A DNA stretch of 33,186 nt from an uncultured Bacilli bacterium (lineage in GTDB: Bacteria > Bacillota_I > Bacilli_A > RF39 > UBA660). Made by a program: the position numbers and the translations under genes. The DNA lies in contig CANQOR010000018.1 of assembly GCA_947625535.1 (NCBI GenBank), positions 1 through 33,186 of the forward strand, given 5' to 3'. The notes under the pieces are model-generated. The model made no database searches and had not been told where the DNA came from. It saw only the letters and a program-made list of their open reading frames with translations. Positions 4,730 through 30,000 of this stretch are shown here, piece after piece. Numbering within the stretch: position 1 is the stretch's first letter; each line of letters begins with the position of its first letter.

Positions 4730-4783
4730 TATGTTTGATGTCAGAAAACTAACATTTCATCAATTTTCATGACTTTTAGTAAC
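4730..4783 (+). mobile_element. Solo IS607-type right end (omega-RNA 3' end remnant)
   Basis: About 54 bases match the 3' end of tnpB plus right end of the element at 8097-9927, from tatgtttgat through cagaaaactaacatttcatc to the terminal ttttagtaac, with a handful of differences. No tnpB or tnpA sequence remains upstream. The last 30 bases follow the 10+10+10 pattern seen at all four such ends here (4754-4783, 8097-8126, 10958-10987, 12291-12320). The following bases tattatatcacagtt would be its guide. Confidence 0.75.
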
Positions 4784-4784
4784 T

Positions 4785-6340: not shown

Positions 6341-6390
6341 GGAAAATGTTTGGAAAGTTGAAAGATGGGTGGAAGAGGGGATTGAAGATT

Positions 6391-8055: not shown

Positions 8056-8107
8056 GATTCAACTTATTCAAGAGAATTGAAGAAAGACTTTAGATAGTTA
8101 CTAAAAA

Positions 8108-9352
8108 TCATGCAAATTGATGAAATGTTAGTTTTCTGGTATCAAACATAGTCTCTACCAGTGGCGTACTACACACCTTTATTGAGTACTTAAATTCCCC
8201 AATTACTTTTCTTAGTATATTAAGCGAACCGTTCAGGTCTGCGTTGATTAGCTTACCGCTTGCGCTTCTAAACAGACCACGTTTGATTCGCTTTCCTGCG
8301 TATTCACCATCGGCATGCTTACATATCTTTTCGTTGTCCAAGAAAGAACATTTTGAGGTATAACTCTCTTCGGTTATAACTACATTTATTCCTTCTAGGT
8401 TACACTTATACGTAAGCATGTCGATGAAACGAGAATGTGGTATCTCCACAAAGTTTTGGTTGTTACGCCTGCCGATATTTGTCTCTTGTTTCCAGTCGTT
8501 GTTCTTCCCAACGATCAGAGTATGTATTTCATTGGAAACTAATTGATTAACAATAAATCGGCTTGCCTTGTGAAGATAATTGTTTACCTTGTTATCTCGC
8601 TTGTGAAAAATTTTGTGTTTTTGCTCTATTAGGTTATTCTTCCCGTTTCCCTCCTTTGTGGTGTCTATTTCCTGTTGAAGTTGTGCTGCTTTCTTGTTGG
8701 CGTATTGGTTTATGGATTTAAGTGGCCGGCCGTTGACAATGTATGGTTTTACCACATTAGAAGAAACAGTGGCAAGGTTGTTCACGCCAAGGTCAATTGC
8801 CGCATACCGCCCATTATCCTTCTTCTTCGGTTTTTCCGTGACGGTGTAAACCACCTCAACCTTGTAATACCCGTTTCTAGGAACGACTCTTGCTTGGTCA
8901 ATACAAAGTGGATTAACCTTGGTTTTAAATTCACAATCCACACCAGAAAGCTTAATAACTCCCTTGTTGAGTCCTTTCTTGGATATTGCCTGAATGGTGA
9001 AGGTCGCTGTGAATCTTCCCTTAACCTTGTCAAGATAATCAGGAATTGACTTCTTTTTGCCCTTTGCCTTCTCTGACTTTAGAGACCCAAAGAAGCCTTT
9101 AAAGTTCCTGTCAATAGACCGTAACACCTGCTGAGAAACCTTGGTCGGTAAGGCGTAGTATTCTTCCTTCTTTTCTGTATTAAACTTCTTATCAAGTGAG
9201 TTACAGTTCAGAAACTTCTTCGTTTCAAAGTAGTGTTGCCTTACTTCATAAAGACCTGAGTTATAGAGGTTCTTTGCACAAAAGCACAGGTCATCCAGCA
9301 ACGCGTATCGCGGGTCGCTCTTCTTTATGACTGTGCTTTCCACTAACTGCAT
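8108..9352 (-). CDS. tnpB: TnpB RNA-guided nuclease (IS607 type)
   Basis: TnpB family, about 414 residues from MQLVESTVIKKSDPRYALLDDLC. I chose the ATG at 9352 because it follows the tnpA stop directly; the upstream ATG at 9433 lies inside tnpA. RuvC-I is AAIDLGVNNLATVSSN (catalytic D), RuvC-III LINADLNGSLNILRKV (D). At the usual RuvC-II spot (I/V-x-E-D-L) it reads LIVGKNNDWKQ, and acidic residues appear later in FVEIPHSRF and VITEESYTSKCSF: the variant arrangement common in this TnpB branch. TnpB proteins cut DNA guided by an RNA made from the gene's 3' end and right end, which here overlap the last codons. It seems intact. Confidence 0.9.
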   Translation of the reverse strand: MQLVESTVIKKSDPRYALLDDLCFCAKNLYNSGLYEVRQHYFETKKFLNCNSLDKKFNTEKKEEYYALPTKVSQQVLRSIDRNFKGFFGSLKSEKAKGKKKSIPDYLDKVKGRFTATFTIQAISKKGLNKGVIKLSGVDCEFKTKVNPLCIDQARVVPRNGYYKVEVVYTVTEKPKKKDNGRYAAIDLGVNNLATVSSNVVKPYIVNGRPLKSINQYANKKAAQLQQEIDTTKEGNGKNNLIEQKHKIFHKRDNKVNNYLHKASRFIVNQLVSNEIHTLIVGKNNDWKQETNIGRRNNQNFVEIPHSRFIDMLTYKCNLEGINVVITEESYTSKCSFLDNEKICKHADGEYAGKRIKRGLFRSASGKLINADLNGSLNILRKVIGEFKYSIKVCSTPLVETMFDTRKLTFHQFA

Positions 9353-9927: not shown

Positions 9928-10013
9928 TTATCTTATTATAACATTATTTATGGGAATACGTGTAAAATTGTTGTAAAAGTTCATTATTATGACACAAATT
10001 TGTTTTTTTTGTG

Positions 10014-10041
10014 TTGACTTTTTGAAAATTTCTTGTACACT
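10014..10041 (+). promoter_or_regulatory. Promoter for 10127-10936
   Basis: TTGACT (10014-10019), 16 bases, TACACT (10036-10041). A second TATAAT lies at about 10104-10109 near the gene. The mirror copy in the right arm (TTGACT, TATATT) reads toward the gene on the minus strand. Confidence 0.55.
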
Positions 10042-10108
10042 AAACCTGTTAAGTGAAACATTACACCAATTATTCATCAAATTTCATCATTATAAATGAC
10101 TTGTTATA
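10014..10108 (+). repeat. 95-bp inverted repeat, left arm
   Basis: Matches the reverse complement of 11051-11145 at 89 of 95 positions by eye, without gaps. It contains TTGACT-N16-TACACT reading toward 10127, then acctgttaagtgaaaca and caccaattattca. The two arms enclose the 10127-10936 gene and both promoter-like sequences point inward. Confidence 0.9.
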
Positions 10109-10126
10109 ATACAAAACAAAAACGCC

Positions 10127-10936
10127 ATGAATACAACAGAAACAGAAGAAAAAGTGCAACCTTCTTGGATGAGTTCTTGGGAAAGGATTCGTGCAAAGAT
10201 GGCTGCAAGACGGGCTGAAAAAGATGTCTTAAAAGACATGGGGATAATTTCAAATGAAGAAAATATCAAAACCGAACAACCAAAAACTTCAAAAGAACGA
10301 AAGAAGAACAGGCAGGAAAAGAGAGAAAAGAAACTTGCAAAACTAAAAGAGAAGAGAATTGAAGCTTCTAAACCAAAGGTTGTTCCTGTATTGGAAGATT
10401 CAAAGGCTTCTCTTTTGCGCGGAGCCAACATAGAAGACGATAATGAATGGCTGTCCAACAAAAGAGTTTCTGAAATTCTTGGTGTGAGGAATCCAAGTCA
10501 AAGTTCATATGACCTTAAAAAGAGAAACAAGTGGAAAAAAGGCCCTGTAGAATTTCTTAAAAGAAGTGTTAGAGAAGCTGTTGAAAAGAAAATCGACCAG
10601 TCTCTTTTAAGAAAGACAACAGCTTGGATTGCAGAATATTTGCAGGAACCAATTGTGGATTCTGTTCCAGATGGGTGGATTGAAATTCACGCGGCTGCCG
10701 AACAGGCTAAGGTTTCCATGCGAACTTTCATTAAGAGGAAGGAAAAGAATCATTGGACCTTTCGACATTTGCGAATTCGTCAGGAAGATGGAAGAGTTAA
10801 AATTTGCACTTTAATCAATGAAGGAACATTGAAGAAATATATTTATGACCGAGAAAAGCAGGTCTATGGAAAGAGTGATTGGGAATATAGGCTTGCAAGA
10901 CATGCGCAAGGAAGAAACAACCGACGCAGACGATGA
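10127..10936 (+). CDS. Putative DNA-binding protein, 269 aa
   Basis: Starts MNTTETEEKVQPSWMSSWERIRAKMAARRAEK after leader acaaaacaaaaacgcc. Residues 20-90 are lysine/arginine-rich and helical (ERKKNRQEKREKKLAKLKEKRIEASKPK). Two helix-turn-helix-like segments follow: EWLSNKRVSEILGVRNPSQSSYDLKKRNKW (about 105-135) and DGWIEIHAAAEQAKVSMRTFIKRKEKNHWTFRHLRIRQEDGRVKICTLI (about 181-230), the latter with a wing-like end and a layout similar to the repeat unit of the 13893-19107 paralogues. The C-terminus is basic (HAQGRNNRRRR). The gene fills a 95-bp inverted repeat whose arms contain its promoter, so autoregulation through the arms is plausible but unproven. Confidence 0.65.
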   Translation: MNTTETEEKVQPSWMSSWERIRAKMAARRAEKDVLKDMGIISNEENIKTEQPKTSKERKKNRQEKREKKLAKLKEKRIEASKPKVVPVLEDSKASLLRGANIEDDNEWLSNKRVSEILGVRNPSQSSYDLKKRNKWKKGPVEFLKRSVREAVEKKIDQSLLRKTTAWIAEYLQEPIVDSVPDGWIEIHAAAEQAKVSMRTFIKRKEKNHWTFRHLRIRQEDGRVKICTLINEGTLKKYIYDREKQVYGKSDWEYRLARHAQGRNNRRRR

Positions 10937-10957: not shown

Positions 10958-10987
10958 CTTTCATGATTTTTCATGATTTTTAGTAAC
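10958..10987 (+). mobile_element. Solo IS607-type right-end remnant
   Basis: ctttcatgat, ttttcatgat, ttttagtaac: the same 30-base terminal pattern as 12291-12320. No tnpB precedes it; it starts 21 bases after the stop of the 10127 gene, inside the 95-bp inverted repeat. Following bases ggtcaagcaaatcttg would be a guide. Confidence 0.6.
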
Positions 10988-11050
10988 GGTCAAGCAAATC
11001 TTGAATGAACTTGCAGGAAGAGAAGACTGGAAGGAAATTGCGATCAGGAT

Positions 11051-11145
11051 TATAACTAGTCATTTATAATAATGAAATTTGGTGAATAATTGGTGTAGTG
11101 TTTCACTTAACAGGTTTAATATACAAGAAATTTTCAAAAAGTCAA
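11051..11145 (-). repeat. 95-bp inverted repeat, right arm
   Basis: Reverse-complement copy of 10014-10108 with six differences. Its promoter-like TTGACT (11145-11140) and TATATT read leftward into the 3' end of the 10127 gene, so it could drive antisense RNA; no minus-strand gene is evident there. Confidence 0.9.
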
Positions 11146-11207
11146 GAAAATTCACAAAAAATACGATTCTTTTGTCATGAAGCCCCTAAATAGGATAGAA
11201 GAGATAA

Positions 11208-12290
11208 ATGATTCTACGTACAACAAGCCACACCATGAAATATATGAACTCTGGAAAGGAGAGTTTGTACTGGCGAATTGTGCGTGATTACACTGAATTG
11301 GTACAGCTCTATATCGACATGATTCACAATAAAAAGCTTCCTCTTAAAACGTTCTTATCAAGCAAGCAGTTGCCAATCCTGAACGATATAGAGAGGTCAT
11401 CATGGAGAGCCGTGTGTTATAAAGAAGCCTCAATGGCTTATAGGAGTGTATTAAATCTGACTAAAGACAAGAAGAAGTTTACTAAACCCGTTGTTAAGGC
11501 TCATTCTATCAATTTAGAGTATCGTTTGTGGAACATTCAGAAGTGTGATAGTGGTGAGTTTAATTACTTCATTAAGATTGTTTCTCCTTATAAGAAGTCA
11601 GAATACAGATACTTGTCTTTTAATGTTCCTATCAAATTTCATAGGGTAAACCGAATCCTAATTGAACAGGGATTCAATATGAATTCTGCCACAATGATGC
11701 TTACTGATAAAGGAAACATTAAACTCTACTGGGAGAAAGAAGAGGTTGCAAAGAGGGAGGGAAAGCCCATTGGTGTGGATTGCGGTTACAAGAAGCTTTT
11801 AGCATGTTCTGATAATACAACTTACGGTGAAGAGTTAGAGCAGATTTATGAGAAGATTTCTAGGAAGAAACAAGGCTCAAAAGCTTTTAAGCGTGCCCTT
11901 ATAGAGCGTGACCAAGCTATCAATAAAACAGTAAAAGATTTCTACAACGACCACAAGGATTGTGGTTTAGTTGCTTGTGAGAACTTAAAGTGCGTAAAGC
12001 ACAAGTCTAAGTTTTCCAAAAAGTTTAACAATAAGTTACAGCGTTGGAGTTATCCTAAGGTACTTACTAAGCTTGAGCGTCTTAGCGAAACGGAAGGTTT
12101 CCGATTGGTTAAGATTCCTCCTGCTTACACATCTCAAAGATGCCATGTCTGTAATACTGTTGATAAGTCAAGTAGGCAAGGAGAGAAATTTCATTGCCAA
12201 ACTTGTGGAGCTGAGTGTGATGCCGACATCAACGCGGCCATCAACATTCTCCGCTTGGGAGTATATAGTCCCCAAGGCTTAATAAACTAA
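11208..12290 (+). CDS. tnpB: TnpB RNA-guided nuclease, stand-alone
   Basis: 360 residues, starting MILRTTSHTMKYMNSGKESLYWRIVRDYTELVQLYIDM. RuvC-I PIGVDCGYKKLLACSDN (D), RuvC-II CGLVACENLKCVKH (E), a four-cysteine zinc finger (CHVCNT and FHCQTCG) and RuvC-III CDADINAAINILRLG (D): all catalytic and zinc residues are present. No transposase gene accompanies it. Its right end (12291-12320) has the same pattern as the IS607-type element at 8097-9927, so it may have been moved by that serine recombinase. The 3' end of the gene and the right end should form the omega RNA. A CTAAATA at 11186-11192 lies 15 bases upstream of the ATG, probably by chance. Confidence 0.9.
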   Translation: MILRTTSHTMKYMNSGKESLYWRIVRDYTELVQLYIDMIHNKKLPLKTFLSSKQLPILNDIERSSWRAVCYKEASMAYRSVLNLTKDKKKFTKPVVKAHSINLEYRLWNIQKCDSGEFNYFIKIVSPYKKSEYRYLSFNVPIKFHRVNRILIEQGFNMNSATMMLTDKGNIKLYWEKEEVAKREGKPIGVDCGYKKLLACSDNTTYGEELEQIYEKISRKKQGSKAFKRALIERDQAINKTVKDFYNDHKDCGLVACENLKCVKHKSKFSKKFNNKLQRWSYPKVLTKLERLSETEGFRLVKIPPAYTSQRCHVCNTVDKSSRQGEKFHCQTCGAECDADINAAINILRLGVYSPQGLIN

Positions 12291-12320
12291 TTTTCATCGT
12301 TTTTCATGATTTTTAGTAAC
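12291..12320 (+). mobile_element. Right end of the 11208 tnpB element
   Basis: ttttcatcgt, ttttcatgat, ttttagtaac. Starts at the base after the tnpB stop codon and ends 26 bases before the hsdM ATG. The next bases (gattcacgcaagaagctg) would be the guide portion of the omega RNA. Confidence 0.75.
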
Positions 12321-12346
12321 GATTCACGCAAGAAGCTGCTAAAACA

Positions 12347-13891
12347 ATGACTGCTGCAACAATTTCTCAAAAGGACCGTGAAGAGCTGCACGGAACAATA
12401 TGGAAAATTTCCAACAAACTTCGTGGAGCTGTTTCAGGTTGGGACTTTAAGCAGTTTGTCCTAGGAACAATGTTTTATAGGTATATTTCAGAAAACATTG
12501 TAGAACATGTCAACAAGAAATTTGGATTAGATTATGCAAACCTGACTGACAAGGAAGCTGAAAACTTGAGGAAAGAAGTTCTGGAAGCAAAAGGATTTTT
12601 CATTCTTCCATCAGAGTTGTTTTGCAACGTGCTTAAGGACTCTGAAAGCAATGACATCAGCGAAAGGTTAGACACAATCTTAAAGAACATTGAAGAGTCT
12701 GCCAAAGAGACTGAAGAGGCAGAGAATTTTACAGGCTTGTTTTCAGATATAGACGTCAACTCCAGCAAGCTTGGCAAAGACTCGAAAGAAAGAAATGAAA
12801 GACTTTCACAATTGCTTCAAGGAATTGCAGAGATGAAGTTATCTTGCAAAAACAATTCTATTGATGCTTTTGGAGATGCTTATGAATTCTTGATGTCAAT
12901 GTACGCCTTCAACGCAGGTAAATCAGGCGGAGAATACTTTACTCCGTCAGAGGTTTCTGAACTTGTAGCGTGCATTGCAACAGTAGGAAAAACTGATGTC
13001 AAAAACGTGTATGATCCCACTTGCGGCTCAGGTTCACTTCTTTTAAAGGCAGCTAAAATTATTGGAAAGGACCATGTTAAGAATGGCTTTTATGGTCAGG
13101 AAATCAATTCAACGTCCTACAATCTCTGCCGAATGAACATGTTTCTCCATGACATCAGCTACAAGAAATTCAAAATTGCTTATGGAGACACCTTGTTAAA
13201 TCCCCAGCTTCAAAACGAGAAGCCGTTTGAAGTTATTGTTTCCAATCCTCCTTATTCTATTGAATGGGCATGTGATAAGAATTCGGAATTGATTAAAGAT
13301 TCGAGGTTTGCACCGGCCGGAGTTTTAGCACCAAGGTCAAAGGCTGATTTGGCTTTTGTAATGCACTGTGCTTCATGGTTGGCAGATAATGGAACAGCAG
13401 CTATTGTATGTTTTCCTGGAATCTTGTATAGAAGTGGAGCCGAAAAGAAGATTCGCAAGTACCTTGTAGATAGCAACTTCATTGATTGTATCATTTCTCT
13501 TCCTCAAAATCTCTTCTTTGGAACATCTGTTGCAACTGCTATCATGGTGTTGAAAAAGTCCAAGGAAGATAACAATGTGCTTTTCATTGACGCCTCCAAG
13601 GAATGCACTAAGGTGAAAAATAAGAACAAGCTCACAGAAAAGAACATTAACAACATCCTTCAGGCGTTCACTGAAAGAACTGACAAGGACTATTTTTGCA
13701 AGCTTGTTTCCAAGGAGGTTGTTGCTGAGAATGATTACAATCTTTCCGTTTCAACTTATGTCCAACAGGAAGATACAAGAGAAAAGATTGACATCAAAAA
13801 GTTGAACGCTGAAATCAAGAGAATGGAAGAGAGACGTAGATTCCTTTGCGCTGAACTTGACAAACTAATTGCAGAGATTGAAGGTGATTGA
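12347..13891 (+). CDS. hsdM: Type I restriction-modification methyltransferase subunit, orphan
   Basis: 514 residues, the normal length for HsdM. N-terminal helical domain (HGTIWKISNKLRGAVSGWDFKQFVLGTMFYRYISENI), then the N6-adenine methyltransferase core: motif I DPTCGSGSLLLKAA (about residue 223) binds S-adenosylmethionine and motif IV NPPYSIEW (about 298) is catalytic. C-terminal coiled segment (INIKKLNAEIKR-type, here KKLNAEIKRMEERRRFLCAELDKLIAEIE) is usual for HsdM. HsdM normally needs HsdS for target choice and pairs with HsdR for cutting; neither follows, as convergent genes begin 1 base after its stop. It could protect phage DNA with a host or distant HsdS, or be decayed. An omega-RNA end lies just upstream. 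Confidence 0.93.
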   Translation: MTAATISQKDREELHGTIWKISNKLRGAVSGWDFKQFVLGTMFYRYISENIVEHVNKKFGLDYANLTDKEAENLRKEVLEAKGFFILPSELFCNVLKDSESNDISERLDTILKNIEESAKETEEAENFTGLFSDIDVNSSKLGKDSKERNERLSQLLQGIAEMKLSCKNNSIDAFGDAYEFLMSMYAFNAGKSGGEYFTPSEVSELVACIATVGKTDVKNVYDPTCGSGSLLLKAAKIIGKDHVKNGFYGQEINSTSYNLCRMNMFLHDISYKKFKIAYGDTLLNPQLQNEKPFEVIVSNPPYSIEWACDKNSELIKDSRFAPAGVLAPRSKADLAFVMHCASWLADNGTAAIVCFPGILYRSGAEKKIRKYLVDSNFIDCIISLPQNLFFGTSVATAIMVLKKSKEDNNVLFIDASKECTKVKNKNKLTEKNINNILQAFTERTDKDYFCKLVSKEVVAENDYNLSVSTYVQQEDTREKIDIKKLNAEIKRMEERRRFLCAELDKLIAEIEGD

Positions 13892-13892
13892 A

Positions 13893-15188
13893 TCAATCTT
13901 GTTGCGGATGTGATTCGCGATAGATTCTTGCCCTCTCTTTCCAACTGTATTGCCAGTCATCATCTGTTTTGGCTTTCCAGCCTCCAATTTGTTCTTTATT
14001 GGGTTTCTGCTTATGAAGTGTGCATCCTTTAAAAATTCCTGGCCTTCGTTCCATTTCTGCTAAAGATTTCAAGAAAGGAATTGCGCGGTCTGCGTCAAAG
14101 ACAATGACGTTGTGAGTATCCCATCTTTTGAAACATCTCTCAGCAACATTCTCATCTCTTAGATATTCGCTTATTAAAGTAGTGGTATAAGGGAACCCGT
14201 GAACAAAATGCAGTTCAACAGGATGCACAAAATGAGGCCTACTCTTAAGTATTTTGGATGCTTTTTCTATTTTGACTATCGGAGTCACAACACCATCAAA
14301 ATAGCGAACGAGTTTAAAGGCTTTGTTTTTCTGGAGCTTTTTAACATGCTTTGTTAAAGGTTGACCAAAATGCTCTTCGGCATTTGTCAAGGTCTCCCAT
14401 CCTTGTGGAATTTCCTTTTCTTCCGGAAGTCTCTTTATTGCCTTTATAATCCTGTCAATTTCATCTTCTTTGCCAGTGTTAAGTTTGTTGCCGTCACTTG
14501 ACTTAAAGTTGAATAGAGATAGAATTAACCTGTGATTATACTTACTTCCTAACATATCACAAAGTTGTTCTCGCTTCCTGTTAGCTCTCCCCTTAGGAGA
14601 AAACCCGTCATTTAACCTTTTTCCATTATTGTTTATCTTAGAGCGCACGCTGTGTTTTCTAACATAGTTCTTCAGGATAGGAATACAAACCTTTTTATCG
14701 ACAACTCTCACGCAAGTTCCATTCCACATGCGAAAACGAATACTTGATATTTCCTCTCCCTGAAAGAATTTTTGTGGATCGTTTTTGTATTTTTTACTAA
14801 ATTCTCCAGTACACACGAAGTGCGGTTTTGTGCCTAAAATTTTAGAAACAATTTTTGTCTGCACAATAGGAGTTACAACATTTTGTGCATTTCTGACAAG
14901 CTTAAAGCCTCCAGCTTCATCAATCTTTTTAAGATGTTCTGACAAAGGTTGTCCAAAATGCTTTTCGGCATCTGATAATGTTTTCCAACCTGTTTTTGCT
15001 GTTACGGTCATTTTGGGAAGATTCTTAATAATTCCAAGAAGTCTATCTGCTTCTTGTGATCCACACTTACAGACTTGGTTGTTGTAAGACGTGTTTCCAA
15101 GGTACTTCAAAATGAGATGGGTACCATTGGAAACACCAAGATATTTCCGCAATTCAGCGCGTTTCTGTTGTAGTTGCTCTATGCTCAT
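13893..15188 (-). CDS. Tandem paralogue 4 (last in operon), internally duplicated
   Basis: 431 residues of two similar halves. Each half has a short helical start (ELRKYLGVSNGTHLILKYLGN; QLCDMLGSKYNHRLILSLFNF), a D-R-(L/I)-(L/I)-x-I segment, then the core GW-x-TL-x-AE-x-HFGQPL-x-x-H-x-KK (residues about 65-90 and 265-290), a strand FKLVR, TPIV, and PHFV. The second half adds FDADRAIPFL and the tail GGWKAKTDDDWQYSWKERARIYRESHPQQD (split here: residues about 400-431). The AE-x-HFG-x-PL region reads like a winged helix-turn-helix. No nuclease motif seen. 3 bases separate it from the next paralogue; all four are one leftward unit. The family is unknown to me. Confidence 0.75.
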   Translation of the reverse strand: MSIEQLQQKRAELRKYLGVSNGTHLILKYLGNTSYNNQVCKCGSQEADRLLGIIKNLPKMTVTAKTGWKTLSDAEKHFGQPLSEHLKKIDEAGGFKLVRNAQNVVTPIVQTKIVSKILGTKPHFVCTGEFSKKYKNDPQKFFQGEEISSIRFRMWNGTCVRVVDKKVCIPILKNYVRKHSVRSKINNNGKRLNDGFSPKGRANRKREQLCDMLGSKYNHRLILSLFNFKSSDGNKLNTGKEDEIDRIIKAIKRLPEEKEIPQGWETLTNAEEHFGQPLTKHVKKLQKNKAFKLVRYFDGVVTPIVKIEKASKILKSRPHFVHPVELHFVHGFPYTTTLISEYLRDENVAERCFKRWDTHNVIVFDADRAIPFLKSLAEMERRPGIFKGCTLHKQKPNKEQIGGWKAKTDDDWQYSWKERARIYRESHPQQD

Positions 15189-15191
15189 GGT

Positions 15192-16484
15192 TTAATCTTG
15201 TTGAGGGTGTGACTCACGATAGATTTTTGCTTTCTCTCTCCAACTGTATTGCCAGTCATCATCTGTTTTGGCTTTCCAGCCTCCAATTTGTTCTTTATTG
15301 GGTTTCTGCTTGTTGAGTAATGTCCCCTTAAAAACACCAGGACGATGGTTCATTTCTCTTAAAGATTGCAAGAATGGAATTGCTCGGTCAGCATCGAACA
15401 CAACAATTTCAAAACCATCCCATCTTTTAAAACGTCTCTCAAAAACATTCTCTTCCCTCAGGTACTTCCTTATTAAACTGATTGCATAAGGAAAACCGTG
15501 AACAAAACGCAATTCAAATGGATGTACAAAATGCGGTTTGATTTTGAGTGCTTTAGAAGCTCTTTCTATGTTGACTATTATAGTTACAACACCATCAAAA
15601 TATCGAATCAGCTTGAAAGCTTTATCCTTTTTCAGCTTTTTAATGTGTGGGATAAGAGGTATAGCAAAATGAGCCTCAGCATCTGTCAGTGGCTCCCAAC
15701 CTTGAGGAATTTCTTTTTCTTCTGGAAGTTTCTCGATCGCCGTTATTACCCTATCGACTTCATCTTCTTTACCTTTGCAAAGCTTATTTCCTGGTGATTT
15801 GAATTCAAACAAAGAAAGAATTAGCCTCTGATTATATTTGCTTCCTAACATGTCACGGAGTTGTTCTCGCTTCCTGTTAGCTCTACCCTTAGGAGAAAAT
15901 CCATCATTTAACCTTTTACAATTGTTGTTAGTTTTGGACCGCTTGCCAGAGTTTCTAACGTATTTTTTAAGACGAGCGACAAAAACATTCTTGTCAATTG
16001 CACGAACTGTAACGTCATTCCATGCACGAAAACGAATATCTGGAATTTCTTCATCTCTAAGAAATTTATATGGATTGTCCTTATACTTCATGCGAAGTTC
16101 TGTAAGGCTTATGAAATGTGGGTTAATGCCCAAAAGTTCAGAAACTATTTTTGTTCGCACAATAGGAGTGACAACATCTTTTGAATTTCTCACAAGCTTA
16201 AAACCACCTGCTTTATCAAGATTTTTTACATATGCTGACAAAGGTTGTCCAAAATGTTTTTCTGCATCTGACAATGTTTGCCAGCCAGTTTTAATCATTC
16301 TTGTCATTTTGGGGAGTTTCTTAAAAATTCCAAGAAGCCTATCTGTTTCTTGCCAACCACACTGACAAATGTTGTTGTTATAAGCAGTGTTGCCCAGATA
16401 TTTTAGAATGAGCTTAGCACCATTTGAGGCACCAAGATATTTCCGTAATTCCGAACGTTTTTGTTGCAGTTTTTCCTTGTCCAT
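15192..16484 (-). CDS. Tandem paralogue 3, internally duplicated
   Basis: 430 residues from MDKEKLQQKRSELRKYLGASNG; the ATG at 16484 is 4 bases after the previous stop, while the longer frame from 16556 would overlap it. It is the closest relative of 13893-15188, for example LNDGFSPKGRANRKREQL in the linker and the same SHPQQD end. Both halves keep the GW-x-x-L-x-AE-x-HF core, and the second has LIPHIKKLKKDKAFKLIRYFDG. The near identity of the two suggests a recent duplication. Function unknown; DNA or RNA binding is an inference from the helix-turn-helix-like core and basic linker. Confidence 0.75.
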   Translation of the reverse strand: MDKEKLQQKRSELRKYLGASNGAKLILKYLGNTAYNNNICQCGWQETDRLLGIFKKLPKMTRMIKTGWQTLSDAEKHFGQPLSAYVKNLDKAGGFKLVRNSKDVVTPIVRTKIVSELLGINPHFISLTELRMKYKDNPYKFLRDEEIPDIRFRAWNDVTVRAIDKNVFVARLKKYVRNSGKRSKTNNNCKRLNDGFSPKGRANRKREQLRDMLGSKYNQRLILSLFEFKSPGNKLCKGKEDEVDRVITAIEKLPEEKEIPQGWEPLTDAEAHFAIPLIPHIKKLKKDKAFKLIRYFDGVVTIIVNIERASKALKIKPHFVHPFELRFVHGFPYAISLIRKYLREENVFERRFKRWDGFEIVVFDADRAIPFLQSLREMNHRPGVFKGTLLNKQKPNKEQIGGWKAKTDDDWQYSWREKAKIYRESHPQQD

Positions 16485-16488
16485 GAAC

Positions 16489-17790
16489 TCAATCTTGTTT
16501 GGGGTGCAATTTTCTATATTGCTTGGCTCCCTCTCGCCAATTATATTTCCAGTCATCTTCGCATTTAATTTTCCACCCTCCGAGCTGATCCTGTGGATTT
16601 TTGCTGTTAAGTTTACGACCCTTGAAAACTCCTGGCCTCCGTTCCATTTCTGTCAAAGATTGAAGAAAAGGAATTGCAAAATCAGCATCAAAAGTAATGA
16701 CGTTGTGAGCATCCCACCTTTTGAAACGCTTTTTTGGTACATTGCCTTTTATAAGATATTTCATCATGCAGTCGGGGGCATAAGGGAATTGATTAACGAA
16801 ATGAAGTTCGTGAATAGATGTGAAATGTGGGTTAATCTTCAGTATGCTTGATGCTCTTTCTATATTGACTATCGGAGTTACAACGCCATCAAAATAACGG
16901 ATAAGTTTAAATGCGTTGCCCTTCTTGAGCTTTTTAACATGCTTTGTTAAAGGTTCACCAAAATGAACCTCGGCCATTGAAAGAGTTTCCCAGCCTTGAG
17001 GAATTTCCTTTTCTTCAGGAAGTCTATTAAGAACTTTAATCATTCTGTCGAGTTCATCTTCTGTTGCCCTGCAAATCACGTTGCCAGCTGCTCTGCAATT
17101 AAATAGAGAAAGAATGAACTTGTGCTGATACGAAGAACCAAACATTTCCCTGAGTTCTTTTTGTTTCTTGTATATTCTTCCTTCTGGAGATAACCAATCA
17201 TCCAACCTCTTTTTGTTATTATTTGACTTGCTCCGTGTTTTCGTTTCTATAACATATTTCTTGAGATATGGAAGAAAGATGTTTTTGTCGTAAACGCGCG
17301 CATACTTGTTTGTCCATAAGAGAACACGAACATATTGAAAACCTGCTTCTCGAAGGAATTTTTGAGGCTGGTTTTTATAGTTTATGTCTATTTCAGAACT
17401 GCTTATGAAATGAGGTTTGATCCCCAAAATTTCAGAAACCGTTTTTGTCCGTACAATAGGTGTCACCACATTGTTCTCATTTCTAACCATCTTAAAACCT
17501 CCTGCCTCATCAATTCTTGTAACATAATCAGACAAAGGTTGACCAAAATGAATTTCTGCATTTGTTAAGGTCTGCCATCCTGTTCTGTCTGTTGGGCTCA
17601 TTTTAGGTAACTTATTAAAAATTTCAAGAAGCCTATCCGTTTCACGAAGTCGACATCCACTAATTTGGTTTCTGTAAGAGTTGTTGCCAAAGTACTTCAG
17701 AATGAGTTTAGCACCAGTGGTTGCTCCAAGATACTTTCGAAGCTCTGCTTGCTTCTGTTTGTATTTCTCCTTATAGGTACTAGTAATCAT
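16489..17790 (-). CDS. Tandem paralogue 2, internally duplicated
   Basis: 433 residues starting MITSTYKEKYKQKQAELRKYLGATTGAKLILKYFGN. The two halves show GWQTLTNAEIHFGQPLSDYVTRI and GWETLSMAEVHFGEPLTKHVKKL, each followed by FKMVR or FKLIR, VVTPIV and PHF. The linker is SPEGRIYKKQKELREMFGS, and the tail NWREGAKQYRKLHPKQD is a diverged version of the shared ending. Gaps of 4 and 6 bases separate it from its neighbours. It is intermediate in divergence between the 15192 and 17797 genes, so the array seems to have grown by stepwise duplication. Confidence 0.75.
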   Translation of the reverse strand: MITSTYKEKYKQKQAELRKYLGATTGAKLILKYFGNNSYRNQISGCRLRETDRLLEIFNKLPKMSPTDRTGWQTLTNAEIHFGQPLSDYVTRIDEAGGFKMVRNENNVVTPIVRTKTVSEILGIKPHFISSSEIDINYKNQPQKFLREAGFQYVRVLLWTNKYARVYDKNIFLPYLKKYVIETKTRSKSNNNKKRLDDWLSPEGRIYKKQKELREMFGSSYQHKFILSLFNCRAAGNVICRATEDELDRMIKVLNRLPEEKEIPQGWETLSMAEVHFGEPLTKHVKKLKKGNAFKLIRYFDGVVTPIVNIERASSILKINPHFTSIHELHFVNQFPYAPDCMMKYLIKGNVPKKRFKRWDAHNVITFDADFAIPFLQSLTEMERRPGVFKGRKLNSKNPQDQLGGWKIKCEDDWKYNWREGAKQYRKLHPKQD

Positions 17791-17796
17791 AGTTCA

Positions 17797-19107
17797 CTAA
17801 TCTTGTTGTGGGTGAGACTCACGATAGATTTTTGCTTTCTCTCTCCAACTATGCCCTTCTTCATCTCCTATCACAGCCTTCCATCCCCCAATCTTGGACG
17901 TTGGCTTCTTTTTATTCAAGAGACCTCCATTCTTTTTACCGGGACGACAAGTCATTTCCATTAGCTCTTGAAGAAAAGGAATTGAAAGGGTAGCATCAAA
18001 CACACAAATCTTTTGAAAGTCCCATCTAGTGAATTTCTTGTCTTTAATTCCTGCTTCTCTTAGGTACTTTTTGCAAATATGGTAATAAGGAAAATTGTAA
18101 ACATGTTCAAGCTCGAAAGCATCTGTGAAGTGAGGTTTTATCCCAAGAATTTCAGAGGTCTTTTCAGTGTGTACTATTGGAGTAATAACCTTGTCAAAAT
18201 TAAGAACAAGCTTAAATGCTTTGTTCTTCTTAAGCCTATTGACATGACGTGACAAAGATTTTCCAAAATGAGTTTCAGCAGAAGATAAAGTTTCCCAACC
18301 AGATGGAATATCTAATTCAACAGGAAGCTTGTCAATAATGCGGATAATTCTGTCAAGTTCCTTCTCCTTTCCTCTGCTGATGAAGTTTCTATAGCTTTTG
18401 AAACCTAATTGAGCCAAGATGAATGGCCGGTGTTTTTTAGGTCCGACCGCGTGGTAAATCTTCACTCTTTTCTTGTCAATCCGTGCAGCAGGTGTCACTT
18501 CATGTTCTAAAAGTGTTGGCTTTTTCTTCTTTTTGGCCTCTTTTGCTTTCTCTTTTTGCTGTTCCAATTTCACAATCTCTTTCCAACAAGATATGGATAA
18601 TTTCTTGTCAAATGAGCAGCCATGACAATTATCCCATCTGGTGAATTTGTGTTCTGGAACTCCTTTCTTTCTGAGAGAATTTTTAATGTTGGACTCGTCT
18701 CTTTCAAACTTATATTTGTGCTTGAGTTCATAAGTGTCAGTGAAAACAGGAAGAACACCAAGCGACTTGGAAGCCTTATCCATGTGAATAATTGGAACAA
18801 GAATTCCATCCAAGTTTTTAATCAGCTTCAAAGCTCCACCAGACTTCAGCTTGTCTATGTGTTGGAACAATGCCATTCCAAAATGTGTCTCAGCGTCTGA
18901 AATACTTTCCCACCCTTTGTGGATTTTCTTTTCAACTGGTGTTGACCTGACGATTTCAACGACCCTTGCAATTTCTTCTGACGTCCCCCGTGAAATATAC
19001 CCTTTATAGCCCTTGTATCCTAAACATGCAAGGATGAATTTGTGACGTCTCTCCTGCCCGCAGCTATATTGCAGCTCCTCTCTTTTCGTTTTGAAAGTTT
19101 GTTTCAT
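17797..19107 (-). CDS. Tandem paralogue 1 (first in operon), internally duplicated
   Basis: 436 residues from MKQTFKTKREELQYSCGQERRHKFILACLGYKGYKG. I chose the ATG at 19107 because a promoter with its -35 at 19150-19155 and -10 at 19127-19132 would start transcription near 19120; the longer frame from 19155 begins inside the promoter. It is the most diverged member: halves read GWESISDAETHFGMALFQHIDKL and GWETLSSAETHFGKSLSRHVNRLKKNKAFKLVLNFDKVITPIV, with a long basic linker KLEQQKEKAKEAKKKKKPT. It keeps the shared tail SWREKAKIYRESHPQQD. Likely nucleic-acid binding; role unknown. Confidence 0.75.
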   Translation of the reverse strand: MKQTFKTKREELQYSCGQERRHKFILACLGYKGYKGYISRGTSEEIARVVEIVRSTPVEKKIHKGWESISDAETHFGMALFQHIDKLKSGGALKLIKNLDGILVPIIHMDKASKSLGVLPVFTDTYELKHKYKFERDESNIKNSLRKKGVPEHKFTRWDNCHGCSFDKKLSISCWKEIVKLEQQKEKAKEAKKKKKPTLLEHEVTPAARIDKKRVKIYHAVGPKKHRPFILAQLGFKSYRNFISRGKEKELDRIIRIIDKLPVELDIPSGWETLSSAETHFGKSLSRHVNRLKKNKAFKLVLNFDKVITPIVHTEKTSEILGIKPHFTDAFELEHVYNFPYYHICKKYLREAGIKDKKFTRWDFQKICVFDATLSIPFLQELMEMTCRPGKKNGGLLNKKKPTSKIGGWKAVIGDEEGHSWREKAKIYRESHPQQD

Positions 19108-19126: not shown

Positions 19127-19155
19127 ACCATAACAACAAATTTAAATTCTGTCAA
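19127..19155 (-). promoter_or_regulatory. Promoter of the four-paralogue operon
   Basis: Minus strand TTGACA (19155-19150), 17 bases, TATGGT (19132-19127). The text TATGGTTACCTCAT matches TATGGTTGCCTCGT at the 6312-6340 promoter. No other promoter is evident inside the array, whose gaps are 3-6 bases. Confidence 0.75.
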
Positions 19156-19172
19156 CCCAAAAAGAAAATTTC

Positions 19173-19201
19173 TTGCAATTTTTCTGAAATTTTCTTATAA
19201 T
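19173..19201 (+). promoter_or_regulatory. Promoter for 19215-19910
   Basis: TTGCAA (19173-19178), 17 bases, TATAAT (19196-19201). Divergent from the paralogue operon, with the two -35 boxes about 18 bases apart. Start expected near 19208, leaving a leader under 10 bases before the ATG at 19215. Confidence 0.65.
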
Positions 19202-22293: not shown

Positions 22294-22368
22294 GTCGCCT
22301 CTGAGGTTCTTAATGGGGTTGTGACCGTCAGAGCGGCCCCATCCCGTGATACGGTTTCACGGGATGGG
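22294..22368 (+). ncRNA. Candidate pseudoknotted RNA or 5' UTR element
   Basis: CTCTGAGGT (22299-22307) pairs with ACCGTCAGAG (22324-22333). The loop holds ATGGGG (22313-22318), able to pair with CCCCAT (22337-22342) as an H-type pseudoknot. That CCCCAT overlaps an 11-bp perfect hairpin, CCCATCCCGTG (22338-22348) with CACGGGATGGG (22358-22368), so pseudoknot and hairpin exclude each other. TTGACT (22259-22264), 17 bases, TAGTTT gives a weak promoter just upstream. No T-run follows, so it is not a standard terminator. It may be a switch in the leader of 22409 or a separate RNA. Confidence 0.5.
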
Positions 22369-22387
22369 CTTAACAAAAACTGCCAAC

Positions 22388-22395
22388 TCTAAATA
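22388..22395 (+). promoter_or_regulatory. T4-late-like TCTAAATA box before 22409
   Basis: tctaaata ends 13 bases before the ATG at 22409, supporting that start over the ATG at 22346, which lies inside the strong hairpin at 22338-22368. Confidence 0.5.
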
Positions 22396-22408
22396 CAAGA
22401 AACTTATT

Positions 22409-24121
22409 ATGGCAATAAGAGTGATTTCAGGGAATAGTGTTTTGCAAGAGGCTTTTGAATTCTCAGCAAGAAAGAACGCTGAAAGAAGAAGGAAACTTTT
22501 AAGAGAATCACAAGGGGATGACAGTGAAGTTAGAAAAACAGATGACATCATTAAAGGAACTGCAACAGCGAGCAGCTTTGAGAAATTTGAAAAAGCTGTG
22601 AAGCTACTGAACCGTAGATTAGAGGAAGAAGGAAAGCCTAAAGTTCTTTGCAAAGCCTCAAAACGCAGATATGAAAAACTAGGAAAGTTGCTTCCTAAAC
22701 TAGTCACTAAAGATAGCCCTTATTACAGTTATTATGTCGAGGTGGTGGATTATGAAATTTCATCAGGAATTGGAAGTTACCTTGAAGATTCTGGATATGA
22801 GGTTGTGGCAGTTGTGGATCACAAGGAAAATATCATTCATAATATCAGCAATTATCCCGGTGTGGAGAAGTTCCGCAACAGAACAGACTGCGATTTTTGC
22901 CACAAACCCAGGTATCGTATAACAACATTCATTTTAAGAGATTTAAAGACAGATGAACTGACTCAAATTGGTTCAAATTGTGTCAAAGCTTTCACTGGAA
23001 TTGACCCAAAGACTTTATTGAAAGAAGTTGATGTTGTTTATCACGAACTCAAAAACCTTGAAGAATTAGAAGCAATACCAGAAGGGGAAGGATGGGGAGG
23101 ATTGATACCATCTAATGATATTCAACCATCTACTAGGACGGCAATCAGAAACATCATTCTTATCATCAATCGTTGGGGATTTGTTCCGCAATCAAAGGAA
23201 GATGTAATAGCTGGAGTAATCCCAACAAAATCCAAGGCAATTGATTCATTTATTCCTCCTCCAAAGGGAATGCCAGAAAAGGGATTTTTTAACAAATATG
23301 AGATAACAGATGAAGAAATAGAACAGGCAGAAAAATATGTTGATGATGTTCTTGATTGGATGAAGAACCTTTATGTTGGTGACGACGACTTTAAGGGTAA
23401 CTTAAAGCAAATGGCACAAAACAAATTTGTGACCAACAAGTCTATTGGATATTTGTGTGCAGGTGTGAACCTATACTTCAGATCAAAGAAATTTGAAGAA
23501 GATACAAAAGAAGAAGGACAAGAATTCTACGGAAATGTAGGTGAAAGAGTTGAACTCAAGTCTCTGGACGTTCTTTCAATAAGAGGATATGACAATGCCT
23601 ACGGTGGCGGATTTGTTATAACAATGAAAGACCCGCAGCAGAGATTGTTTGTTTGGTTCTGCTCAACGAATAACCATCCCGGAATTGGTGATAAGGTTGA
23701 CCTTGTTGGAACTATTAAAGACCACAAAGAGTTCCGCGGTAAGAAACAGACTTACTTGAGTCGTTGCAAGATTGTTAAAACAATAGAAAAGCCAAAAGAA
23801 GAAGCTTATTTTCCATGGCGGAGTCCAGAAGCTTATAGACTTCATCTTAATGATGAAATACTCGATAAAATTGCAAAAAATGTAGATGAATTATACATAA
23901 CAAAATGCAAAGGAGATCAAGACAAAATTAACAATTTAGCTTTTATTAAAAAGGCCGCTTTCATTAAATATAAATCGCGTGTGAAGCAAAAAATTTTGCA
24001 CATGAAGGAGGACGACCTAACACTAAACAAGGTAGAAACTATTATCGATTATTATAAAGAAGGCATTGGAGAATTTATTGAAGATGAGATTGAACATGGG
24101 TATAAGCAGGCAACCAACTGA
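22409..24121 (+). CDS. Zinc-finger / OB-like protein with capsid-targeting-like N-terminus
   Basis: 570 residues from the ATG at 22409, chosen because residues 4-16 (RVISGNSVLQEAF) then align with the shared peptide and a TAAATA box lies just upstream. Residues 161-197 (CDFCHKPRYRITTFILRDLKTDELTQIGSNCVKAF, read in two parts: CDFC and GSNCVKAFTG) look like the treble-clef module of uncharacterised phage and mobile-element proteins. Residues about 385-470 (FYGNVGERVELKSL, VDLVGTIKDHKEF, QTYLSRCKI) read as an OB-fold, suggesting single-stranded DNA or RNA binding. The C-terminus is helical. Candidate L-Q-E site at 12-14. If packaged, it would be a large nucleic-acid-binding protein delivered with the genome. 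Confidence 0.7.
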   Translation: MAIRVISGNSVLQEAFEFSARKNAERRRKLLRESQGDDSEVRKTDDIIKGTATASSFEKFEKAVKLLNRRLEEEGKPKVLCKASKRRYEKLGKLLPKLVTKDSPYYSYYVEVVDYEISSGIGSYLEDSGYEVVAVVDHKENIIHNISNYPGVEKFRNRTDCDFCHKPRYRITTFILRDLKTDELTQIGSNCVKAFTGIDPKTLLKEVDVVYHELKNLEELEAIPEGEGWGGLIPSNDIQPSTRTAIRNIILIINRWGFVPQSKEDVIAGVIPTKSKAIDSFIPPPKGMPEKGFFNKYEITDEEIEQAEKYVDDVLDWMKNLYVGDDDFKGNLKQMAQNKFVTNKSIGYLCAGVNLYFRSKKFEEDTKEEGQEFYGNVGERVELKSLDVLSIRGYDNAYGGGFVITMKDPQQRLFVWFCSTNNHPGIGDKVDLVGTIKDHKEFRGKKQTYLSRCKIVKTIEKPKEEAYFPWRSPEAYRLHLNDEILDKIAKNVDELYITKCKGDQDKINNLAFIKKAAFIKYKSRVKQKILHMKEDDLTLNKVETIIDYYKEGIGEFIEDEIEHGYKQATN

Positions 24122-26421: not shown

Positions 26422-26859
26422 ATGAAACTGTTCACCGATATATATAACATTGTTTATTTTGGACGGTTGGTCTGGAAATTAGGCAAAACTGTTGAAGGCT
26501 CATTTGACATTGTTCAAATTCTTCGGAAACAATTGGAAAAGCTCTCAAATTCGGTGACTTTTAAGCAGGCCGTGGAAGCAGCTTTAAAAGAAAGGGAAGG
26601 TCGTTCAACGCGGACTATTCAAGATTTTAAGTGGCTTTCTAATCGTTTCCTGAAGAATTGTGAAGGCTTAGCCGACAAGAAGATTAGAACTCTGACAAAG
26701 GAAGACTGTGAGATGATGATTAAAAAATCGTTCAACACTCCTGTTTAAAGGAATAAGGGACGTCTTGTTTTAAGTGGCATATTCTCCACGGCTTTCAAGA
26801 ATGGCTGGGTTGATGGAAACATCATCCGACTCATCCATCCCTCAAAGATTTAAAAAAAA
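26422..26859 (+). pseudogene. Tyrosine integrase, N-terminal remnant with in-frame stop
   Basis: The frame from 26422 encodes a linker helix, then SVTFKQAVEAALKEREGRSTRTIQDFKWLSNRFLKNCEGLADKKIRTLTKEDCEMMIKKSFNTPV, the start of a core-binding (SAM-like) domain, and stops at TAA 26746-26748. The same frame continues past the stop as RNKGRLVLSGIFSTAFKNGWVDGNIIRLIHPSKI, the second half of that domain. Where related integrases have a glutamine codon (CAA) the sequence has TAA. It then runs into the inverted repeat at 26862, and the catalytic domain with its R-H-R-Y residues is missing from the window. It was broken twice, by the stop and by the insertion. Confidence 0.75.
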
Positions 26860-27039: not shown

Positions 27040-30000
27040 ATGCAAAGTACTGAAATCAACATATCGGGGGGGGGTGGTAACCCATTAAGGAAGAATAAGT
27101 TAGGAAGTTGGTGTGAAATTTGCACGCAGCGGGAGGAGGTTGAAAATGAGCCGCTGCAACAGGGGGAATGTTTTGAGAGGAAGGTAACGCTTCGCCAGCT
27201 CCTTGATCAAATAAGGGAGGCGACGAAGGATTTGTCGGAGCGAGAAAAGGGGACACGTTTTGAGGAGCTGATTTGTCGATTCCTTCAGGATGATCCGATA
27301 TACAAGGAGCGTTTTTCGGAGGTTTGGCTTTGGGGGGATTGGCCTTATGCAGATGGGCCTGATCGTGGCATTGACTTAGTAGCCAAGGAGGCTGATTCTG
27401 ACCGTTATGTAGCCATTCAATGCAAGTTCTACGAGCCAAACCATCTCATGAGTCTCCCTGATGTTGGGACTTTTTTCGCTGCTCTTAATACTACGATCAA
27501 GACAGAGCACAGCAAGATGGATTCATTCGTGCAGGGAATTATCATAGCCACGACTAACCATTGGAATGGGGTGCTGCTGGGAACGATGCATGATCAGAAT
27601 ATCCCCTGCCAACGCGTCGGGCTGGCTGAGTTGGAAAGATCAGCCGTGGATTGGAATGCTCTCGCCAAGGGGAAATTAAGCGAAGTAACCAAGCATCCTA
27701 TTAAGGAGCATCAGCGCGAAGCCATCAATGCAGTGTTGGAGGGGTTCAAGTCGGCAGACCGTGGTAAGCTCATCATGGCTTGCGGCACGGGTAAGACTTT
27801 CACTGCTCTGCGATTGACGGAGGAATACACAAAGGGCGTAGGTTGTGTCCTGTTTCTTGCTCCGAGCATCGCTCTCGTGGCTCAAAGTCTTCGCGAGTGG
27901 ATGGCTCAAACCAACTGCCGTATTCATCCCATTGCCGTGTGCTCTGATGGTTCAGCATCTTCCATAGGGGATTTGGCGGATTTGTCCGCTCGTGACCTCC
28001 CTGCTCGTGCTACCACAGACCCCGCGACCATTGCTCAACTCTACTCCAAGTTCAAGGACTCCCGCTTGACCGTCATTTTCTCCACCTATCAATCCATCGA
28101 GAAGCTGCATGAGGCCCAAAAGGTCGGTGCTCTGCCCGAATTCGACCTCTGCATTTGTGATGAAGCCCACCGTACGACCGGTGTCTCCCTGTATGATGAG
28201 AAAGAGGGTAAGCACATCGAATCCCATTTCGTGAAGGTTCACGATCAGAACTACATCGCTTGTCGTAAGCGAGTCTATATGACCGCCACTCCCAAGATTT
28301 ATGCAGAATCCGCCCGTAAAAAAGTGAAGGACGCCAATGCTGAGCTGGCTTCCATGGATAACCGTGAGCAATTCGGCGATGAATTCTTCCGTCTGCCTTT
28401 CTCTCGTGCTGTTCGTGAAGGATTGCTCACAGATTACAAGGTCCTTGTACTCTGCGTTGATGAGGAGTACGTGAAGGAAATCATGAAAGAACACCTCACT
28501 CAGGATGAGACAGGTGCCATTGAACTTGATGATGCCGTCCGTCTTGTCGGCTGCTACAATGGTTTGCGCAAGAAAGTATTATTGCCCGTTAAACCCGATG
28601 CAGGCAACTCGGATGACGACTCATACGATCCCACTCTACCGGATACGTCGGATCAGGATGAGGATTTTCTCACCTCCGATCCGGGGCCAATGAGGCGCGC
28701 CGTGTCCTTTGCTAATATCATCGCGGCTTCCAAGAACTACACGGCCATGTGGAAAGAGGTTGTAAACGCGATCCGCAAGGATGAGGGAGACGCCCCTGAC
28801 TTCCTTGACAGCGAGATGCAACACGTGGACGGGAACATGGACATGGGGGAGCGTGCCGCTCTCCTTAGTTGGCTCAAGGACAACTCGGACACAAATGCTT
28901 CACAAGGCGCGAAAGGGTGTCGTATTCTCTCCAACGCTCGCTGTCTATCCGAAGGTGTGGATGTTCCGTCGCTGGATGCCGTCATGTTCCTTGCCCCTCG
29001 TAAATCACAAGTGGACGTGGTACAATCTGTGGGGCGTGTGATGCGAAAATCACCGGGTAAAAAGTTCGGGTACATCATTCTCCCCATCGGTGTATCTCCC
29101 AAGGATGACCCCAAAGAGGTCCTCGACAAAGACGAAAAATACAAGGTTGTGTGGGATGTTCTCCAAGCCCTGCGTTCTCACGATGACCGATTCAATGCAG
29201 AAATCAACTCCATTGAACTCAACAACGGCCGTGGTAAGCGTATCGTAGTGGGAGGCATTACACGTCCCACCAAGGGAAAGAAACGCCCCTTCAAAGATAA
29301 AGGAGACGAGAAAGAAAACCCAGACATAGGCATCCCAATCCAGGGCACCTTCGATTTTGATAAAGAACTTTCTTCCTGGACGGACGGAATTCTCGTAAGA
29401 ACCGTTCAAAAATGTGGCGACAGGCGATATTGGGATATTTGGGCAAAGAACATTGGCGAAATTGCAAAGCGTCAGATAGCCTCTATCAATGAGTTCCTTG
29501 ATAAAGGCATTGGCTCGGAGGAATTTGACCTCTTCCTGTCTGGTTTGCAAAAGAATACAAATCCCGCTATTGAAAGGCAAGATGCCATTGAAATGTTGGC
29601 ACAGCAGTACATCTCTCGTCCTGTATTCAATGCCCTGTTTGAGAAATATCAGTTCGCCGAGAGCAACCCTGTCTCCCAGACGATGAACCGTATGCTTGAC
29701 ATCGTGCAGCAGAACACCGATGCCAATGACTTGCGAGAACTGCAACGCTTCTACGACTCAGTGAAAGACCGCGCGCAGAGCATTGATAACGCCGCCGGTC
29801 GTCAACAGGTGATTGTGGAACTCTACGATAAATTCTTCAAGATGGCATTCCCCCGCTTGGCAGAGAAACTGGGCATCGTCTATACACCCCTTCCTGTGGT
29901 GGACTTCATTATCCATTCCGTCCACAAGGTGCTGCAAAAGGAGTTCGGCGTGAAAGATGGTCTCGGAGCGCAAGGTGTTAAAATTCTCGACCCCTTCACA

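Follow-up and report, generated by a model that had tools for sequence, protein, structure and literature searches.

The 33,186-nt contig CANQOR010000018.1, part of a metagenome-assembled genome (MAG) of 113 contigs (GCA_947625535.1), carries an operon of four tandem paralogous genes, here named A to D, which together contain eight copies of one unit. The whole contig was analyzed and is referred to as the window. With moderate confidence, we interpret the array as encoding early, basic DNA-binding proteins with multiple winged helix-turn-helix (wHTH) domains that were diversified by duplication and serve as regulators or DNA organizers. This interpretation is based on a confident model of the unit, structural matches to domains of the excisionase (Xis)/MerR type, a strong basic charge, purifying selection, and an early-type promoter without a late promoter. 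In addition, the first wHTH combines a conserved core with a variable recognition helix and wing tip.

Organization of the array

The four genes lie on the minus strand in the order A-B-C-D, with intergenic gaps of 6, 4, and 3 bases, and span about 5.2 kb (Table 1). A first-pass annotation of the sequence had described four consecutive genes of 430-436 residues with gaps of 3-6 bases, each with two internal repeats. The open reading frame coordinates agree with this description and add the strand, and the repeats were recovered by both unit alignment and profile search. All four proteins are strongly basic (pI 9.7-9.9, charge +31 to +36). Each contains two units of about 185 residues, giving eight units in the array. 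These can be aligned end to end and have GW..[LI]..AE.HF, [FL]K[LM][VI], and I[VI] as common motifs. The motifs highlighted earlier (the GW..[LI]..AE.HF core, FKLVR, and TPIV) and the terminal sequences (YRESHPQQD in three proteins, YRKLHPKQD in one) are present as described. A search of the whole 1.8-Mb assembly with the unit profile matched exactly the eight units of the array. Given a rate of nonsynonymous substitution (dN) well below that of synonymous substitution (dS) and frames that stay open over this length, the array is far from a chance arrangement.

Predicted fold of the unit

One unit (A2) was modeled with AlphaFold2 using the eight units as input alignment, resulting in a pLDDT of 90.9 and a pTM of 0.84. 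The model starts with a helical N-terminal part of three helices (residues 2-14, 17-26, and 41-53), followed by two rounds of a β-α-α-β-β-α succession. The first round (residues 64-114) comprises a strand (64-66), two helices (67-74 and 79-87), two strands (91-95 and 101-106), and a helix (107-114). The second round (residues 120-180) has the corresponding elements at 120-122, 123-128, 135-144, 149-153, 159-164, and 165-180. The unit is thereby predicted to consist of a helical N-terminal part and two wHTH domains of excisionase/MerR topology, which, provided that every unit adopts this fold, would amount to four wHTH per protein and 16 per array. The AlphaFold2 model of full-length A (pLDDT 78) has essentially the same architecture in both units. 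No homology between the first and second wHTH within a unit is detectable by profile comparison.

The top rows of the VIA-align comparison of the unit model include a putative excisionase (2kvv, Z 4.0), CbpM (3ucs, Z 3.7), and TraN (4pm3/4p0y, Z 3.3-3.4), with BldC, MtaN-DNA, and Pukovnik Xis (all Z 3.2) in further rows. Nearly all top rows are Xis/MerR-type domains, and most of those other than CbpM are DNA-binding proteins. Pukovnik Xis superposes on residues 64-117 of the full-length A model with 1.8 Å over 46 residues. The core had been described from sequence as resembling a winged helix-turn-helix. The AlphaFold2 models and the excisionase, TraN, BldC, and MtaN matches support this, with the correction that each unit is modeled with a pair of winged helices instead of a single one. 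Aspartate kinase, IMPDH, and ribosomal uL30 also came up as structural matches, which were attributed to chance.

Divergence and selection among the copies

Protein identity is highest between C and D (72%); B shares 60% with C and 59% with D, and A is 38-42% identical to the other three. These graded values fit the expanding family proposed earlier, with A as the oldest and C/D as the youngest split. At the level of units, identity is 26-74% between units at the same position and mostly 29-40% between first and second units. For C/D, dN is 0.18 and dS is 1.2; in the remaining pairs dS is far above dN, or saturated. The copies are under purifying selection, indicating that all four have been retained as working proteins.

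Variation is unevenly distributed over the unit. Across the eight units, the strands and helix 1 of the first wHTH are conserved (mean entropy 0.6-0.8) and its recognition helix and wing tip are variable (entropy 1.4). The second wHTH is more variable than the first, with an entropy of 1.6-1.7 throughout, except for the turn. Differences between C and D accumulate in the second wHTH of unit 1 (32 of 61 positions differ here, and 88 of the other 369; p is 1e-5 in a Fisher test and 0.001 in a scan), where identity drops to 48% from 76% outside. B/D and B/C have the same tendency to diverge there, and this domain has lost five residues in B, C, and D. The earlier description of conserved ends and diverged middles needs a correction, as divergence peaks in the second wHTH of unit 1 and not in the middles in general.

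No case of dN above dS was seen, and synonymous sites are saturated, so that relaxed constraint (free drift) explains the divergence of this domain as well as diversifying selection or a change of target. The recognition or decoy role that the first-pass annotation had suggested is not supported: divergence is concentrated in one wHTH, yet dN does not exceed dS at this saturation. Likewise, the per-site comparison it proposed did reveal a variable recognition helix and wing tip over a conserved core in the first wHTH, but dN above dS was not seen, with synonymous sites saturated. The last 53 nt of A and C (17798-17850 and 15193-15245) are 96% identical, compared to 54% over the whole genes, probably because gene conversion has acted on a short stretch of the conserved tail.

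The contig as a probable fragment of a T4-type phage

The contig has a GC content of 40%, compared to 24-27% in eight other contigs of the MAG. Its tetranucleotide correlation with these eight is 0.25-0.37, while they correlate with contig C1 at 0.80-0.89. Based on both contrasts, the contig is foreign to the bacterium of the MAG. The heptamer CTAAATA, the late promoter described for the T4-like phage Aeh1 (PMC1524935), occurs nine times in the 33 kb, and eight of these sites lie 13-22 nt before a start codon (0.17 expected). The protein encoded at 22346-24121 has its best phage relatives in Aeromonas phages phiWae14, phiAS5, and Aeh1 (29-33% identity).

Six otherwise unrelated proteins carry one of two N-terminal tags (RxIxGxxxL[RKQ]EAF or QQEAYDxFIEW[IL]LES). 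Both tags end in [LI]xE and are followed by A or S, the form taken by T4 prohead-protease sites. Given the tags and the CTAAATA or TAAATA upstream of all six genes, these are probably late virion proteins. In T4, the core proteins IPII and IPIII have an N-terminal capsid-targeting sequence of about 10 residues, and gp21 removes short N-terminal peptides from internal proteins (PMC9958956). The tags look like such capsid-targeting sequences of packaged, possibly injected, proteins. In sum, the contig appears to be a piece of a large T4-type phage. A phage origin had been assumed earlier and is consistent with the T4-type late promoters, the tags, and the foreignness to the bin; an orphan metagenomic contig would thereby be placed among T4-type phages with an Aeh1-like late promoter. 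A search of the assembly for gp20 and gp23 had no match, and neither had its control search; with 33 kb, the contig covers a fragment of the phage, the remainder of which seems to be absent from the bin. Shine-Dalgarno-like sequences are rare in the window (any 4-base match at five of 29 gene starts), pointing to a host that uses different signals for initiation.

Promoter and upstream region of the array

The array has neither a CTAAATA late promoter nor a capsid-targeting-like tag. A probable promoter precedes gene A (Table 1); by itself, its agreement with the consensus lacks significance, as 14 such sites were found versus 12.6 expected. A near-copy, TTGACA-17-TATGGTTRCCTCRT, is located at 6341(-). 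In view of this near-copy and the contrast with the late genes, the best reading of the array is a sigma70/early-type operon. The divergent gene at 19215 (+) has a promoter TTGCAA-17-TATAAT. We also observed GGTTRCC at or just past the -10 element of three early-type promoters, namely at 19129 (array), 19211 (gene 19215, opposite orientation), and 6314 (-) (operon 6270-). The proximity of AAATTTTC and GGTTRCC to early-type promoters is suggestive only.

Table 1. Coordinates of the array, its units, and associated sequence features in the window.
Feature	Position	Strand	Remarks
Paralogue A	17797..19107	-	436 aa, pI 9.7; leads the operon, most diverged copy
Paralogue B	16489..17790	-	433 aa, pI 9.8; tail YRKLHPKQD
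Paralogue C	15192..16484	-	430 aa, pI 9.9
Paralogue D	13893..15188	-	431 aa, pI 9.8; stop codon 1 base from the end of convergent hsdM
Unit A1	18544..19098	-	Helical N-terminal part + two predicted wHTH; profile match, E 1.1e-82
Unit A2	17929..18483	-	Profile match; unit folded alone
Unit B1	17221..17766	-	Profile match; second wHTH 5 residues shorter
Unit B2	16621..17178	-	Profile match
Unit C1	15927..16472	-	Profile match; second wHTH 5 residues shorter
Unit C2	15327..15884	-	Profile match
Unit D1	14631..15176	-	Profile match; second wHTH 5 residues shorter
Unit D2	14028..14588	-	Profile match
wHTH 2 of unit 1 (residues 119-184 of A)	18556..18753	-	Site where divergence is concentrated in the family
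Conserved C-terminal tail of A (residues 387-436)	17800..17949	-	Common to all four genes; mostly unstructured in the model
Probable promoter TTGACA-17-TATGGT, TG before -10	19127..19155	-	Sigma70/early-type consensus; 19 nt before the ATG of A
Perfect inverted repeat GAAAATTTC-N13-GAAATTTTC	19164..19194	.	Flanked by the divergently oriented promoters of the array and gene 19215
CTAAATA sites	e.g., 6392, 20433, 21780, 22389, 24582; 33122	+; -	Upstream of start codons
Tagged genes	3621, 6405, 21793, 22409, 24596; 33109	+; -	CTAAATA just upstream (TAAATA for 3621)

Search for relatives

No relative of the array was found in IMG/VR viral contigs (single-protein and alignment queries), GenBank phages (tblastn with D), plasmids (tblastn with A), a pattern scan of 84,980 GTDB species genomes with one alignment, or profile searches of about 540 genomes (146 of relatives and 392 of the phylum); PADLOC had no match for the array proteins. 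As pattern-based scans can miss diverged relatives, this result applies to the collections searched. The earlier remark that no described system looks like the array holds to this extent: the fold is already known, but the family, the chain with four wHTH, and the tandem array are absent from these collections. The unit profile, an approach proposed in the first-pass annotation, likewise found no relative in the searched genomes. Two weak profile matches, inside an mfd-like helicase (L014) and an Rrf2-like regulator (L015), were judged by eye to be due to chance. The 269-aa protein encoded at 10127-10936 has a similar-looking PDGW...A pattern, but homology is not supported (hhalign probability 8%).

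Neighboring genes and mobile elements

The array converges with an hsdM gene (Type I methylase, 12347-13891, +), which has complete domains and no adjoining hsdS or hsdR. A TnpB gene (11208-12290) precedes hsdM, and IS607-type genes are also located nearby. A single-chain restriction-modification protein of 1685 aa is encoded at 27040-32097 (+), with type IIG and type I restriction endonuclease-methyltransferase fusions as its best PADLOC matches. The GC content of this gene is 48-52%, compared to 34-41% over most of the contig, and it is probably a recent acquisition. No integrase adjoins the array; a short open reading frame resembling an integrase N-terminus (26422-26748) lies remote.

The gene of the 269-aa protein is flanked by inverted repeats of 102 nt (10009-10110 and 11049-11150, 92% complementary), which resemble the termini of a small mobile element. 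Both arms include GAAAATTTCTTG, which is also present upstream of the array. A 30-nt sequence close to TTTCATGATTTTTCATGATTTTTAGTAACG is found at 4755-4784, 10959-10988, 12292-12321, and 8094-8125 (-). Two of these copies lie at the ends of TnpB/IS607-type genes, and the repeats are perhaps element ends or guide-RNA ends.

Proposed role of the array and alternative explanations

In the proposed mechanism, the sigma70-driven operon of a large T4-type phage would be expressed early in infection, and each protein would make up to four wHTH contacts with DNA. Proteins A to D would bind phage and/or host DNA at this stage and either regulate transcription or organize DNA by side-by-side binding. 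Duplication would have created copies with different DNA preferences, and the conserved flexible tail may dock to a partner common to all copies. We infer DNA binding itself, and equally the exact role and the division of labor among the four proteins.

Several results weigh against this interpretation. Pfam, NCBIfam, and PHROGs yielded no match, to HTH or other families, for the array proteins or units, and PDB sequences contain no relative of the array, leaving no sequence-level link to wHTH families. A crude hhalign comparison to HTH_17 members, half of which were lost or misread, gave no match either. Structural similarity is weak throughout (no Z above 4), small wHTH domains resemble many things, and Foldseek against PDB and BFVD returned no match with an E-value below 0.001; for this reason the fold was assigned from its topology and the consistent list of matches. 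Furthermore, wHTH folds also act as protein-protein modules, and CbpM was solved in complex with a J-domain. A repeat search for an iterated binding site of the array found none, and no DNA target was identified. The inverted repeat upstream of the array is a candidate operator and has candidate status only, and the promoter consensus is the sole basis for the early timing.

An alternative that we consider unlikely is that A to D act as a DNA shield or in anti-defense: they would coat phage DNA with little sequence preference soon after entry, or mask promoters or restriction sites, for protection or transcription shut-off. The basic charge of all four proteins and the early-type promoter would suit this role, as would the four copies, which suggest dosage, and the restriction-modification neighbors (hsdM at 12347-13891 and the single-chain protein at 27040-32097). 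T7 Gp5.7 (PMC5569994) and RdfS (PMC11963761) provide precedents. Simple coating would, however, need neither diverged recognition helices nor 38-72% identity between copies, and PADLOC and PHROGs gave no match.

The wHTH domains may instead be scaffold modules that contact host or phage proteins, as in CbpM, with an incidental basic charge. CbpM, a J-domain-binding protein with a MerR-like fold, ranks second among the structural matches, and the conserved tail suggests partner binding. We give this explanation little weight, as every copy has a charge of +31 to +36 over about 430 residues and most other top structural matches are DNA-binding proteins.

It is very improbable that the four genes are alternative HsdS-like specificity subunits of the neighboring orphan hsdM, offering four variants of two repeats with a helical linker. 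The complete hsdM without adjoining hsdS or hsdR ends 1 base from the array, a relative of it (52% identity, L022) is directly followed by an hsdS-like gene, and the two-repeat architecture would fit. On the other hand, the predicted wHTH differ from HsdS target-recognition domains, neither Methylase_S in Pfam nor any PADLOC profile was matched, and hsdM, which is preceded by the TnpB gene, converges with the array and is not co-transcribed with it. Least credible of all is a relic, in which degenerate DNA-binding modules of homing endonucleases or transposon proteins would have stayed behind and now serve no purpose. The nearby TnpB and IS607-type genes could speak for it; the four intact frames, dN well below dS, the conserved tail, and the lack of any nuclease or NUMOD domain speak against it. 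A homing-endonuclease module, named in the first-pass annotation as an identity that would make the array ordinary, was not found (no NUMOD/HNH, GIY-YIG, or other Pfam match).

For the favored DNA-binding proteins, a rather doubtful extension is modular DNA reading, in which the four wHTH of a protein would read one long composite site and the tandem operon would let a phage gain new specificities as single domains are duplicated and diverge. The hot spot would then be the second wHTH of unit 1, with a logic comparable to that of zinc-finger arrays; we know of no winged-helix modular DNA-reading system described in phages. If the prediction of DNA-binding wHTH proteins holds, a domain of the excisionase/MerR type that is normally single or paired would be repeated four times per chain and 16 times per operon. 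The array would then represent a protein family unseen in the searched collections, showing how a large phage builds and diversifies the recognition of long DNA sites. It would also offer a defined target for DNA-binding tests, consisting of four proteins and one upstream inverted repeat.

Comparison with known systems

In the model, the array units share the β-α-α-β-β-α topology of the wHTH with excisionases and recombination directionality factors (Pukovnik Xis, 4j2n; RdfS, 8dgl; K. pneumoniae, 2kvv), and Pukovnik Xis aligns to the first wHTH of unit 1. These proteins have a single domain (PDB chains of 54-78 residues), whereas an array protein of about 430 aa has four predicted wHTH, a helical part at the start of each unit, and a tail; no sequence similarity was detected between them. 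The alignment of the unit's second wHTH with MerR-family proteins (BldC, 6ama and 6amk; MtaN, 1r8d) covers 52-59 residues (3.0-3.6 Å, Z 2.9-3.2), but the array has no MerR-type effector domain and no Pfam match.

TraN of pIP501 (4p0y, 4pm3, 4p0z) has two MerR-like wHTH per chain, as predicted for each array unit, and these bind a specific DNA site (PMC4981023). It was matched three times (Z 3.1-3.4), with essentially one wHTH aligned per match. TraN is a 14.4-kDa internal dimer around central antiparallel sheets and lacks a helical N-terminal part of the array kind, while the array has a unit of about 185 aa that occurs twice in each of four tandem genes, without sequence similarity to TraN. 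T7 Gp5.7, a wHTH-like phage protein, represses host RNA polymerase at phage promoters (PMC5569994); with its 7 kDa and single domain, MarR-like rather than Xis-like, it would resemble the array in function only. RdfS is a filament-forming wHTH protein that binds many sites and long stretches with little apparent consensus (PMC11963761). TraN, RdfS, and T7 Gp5.7 are best regarded as analogies to the array proteins and not as members of the same family.

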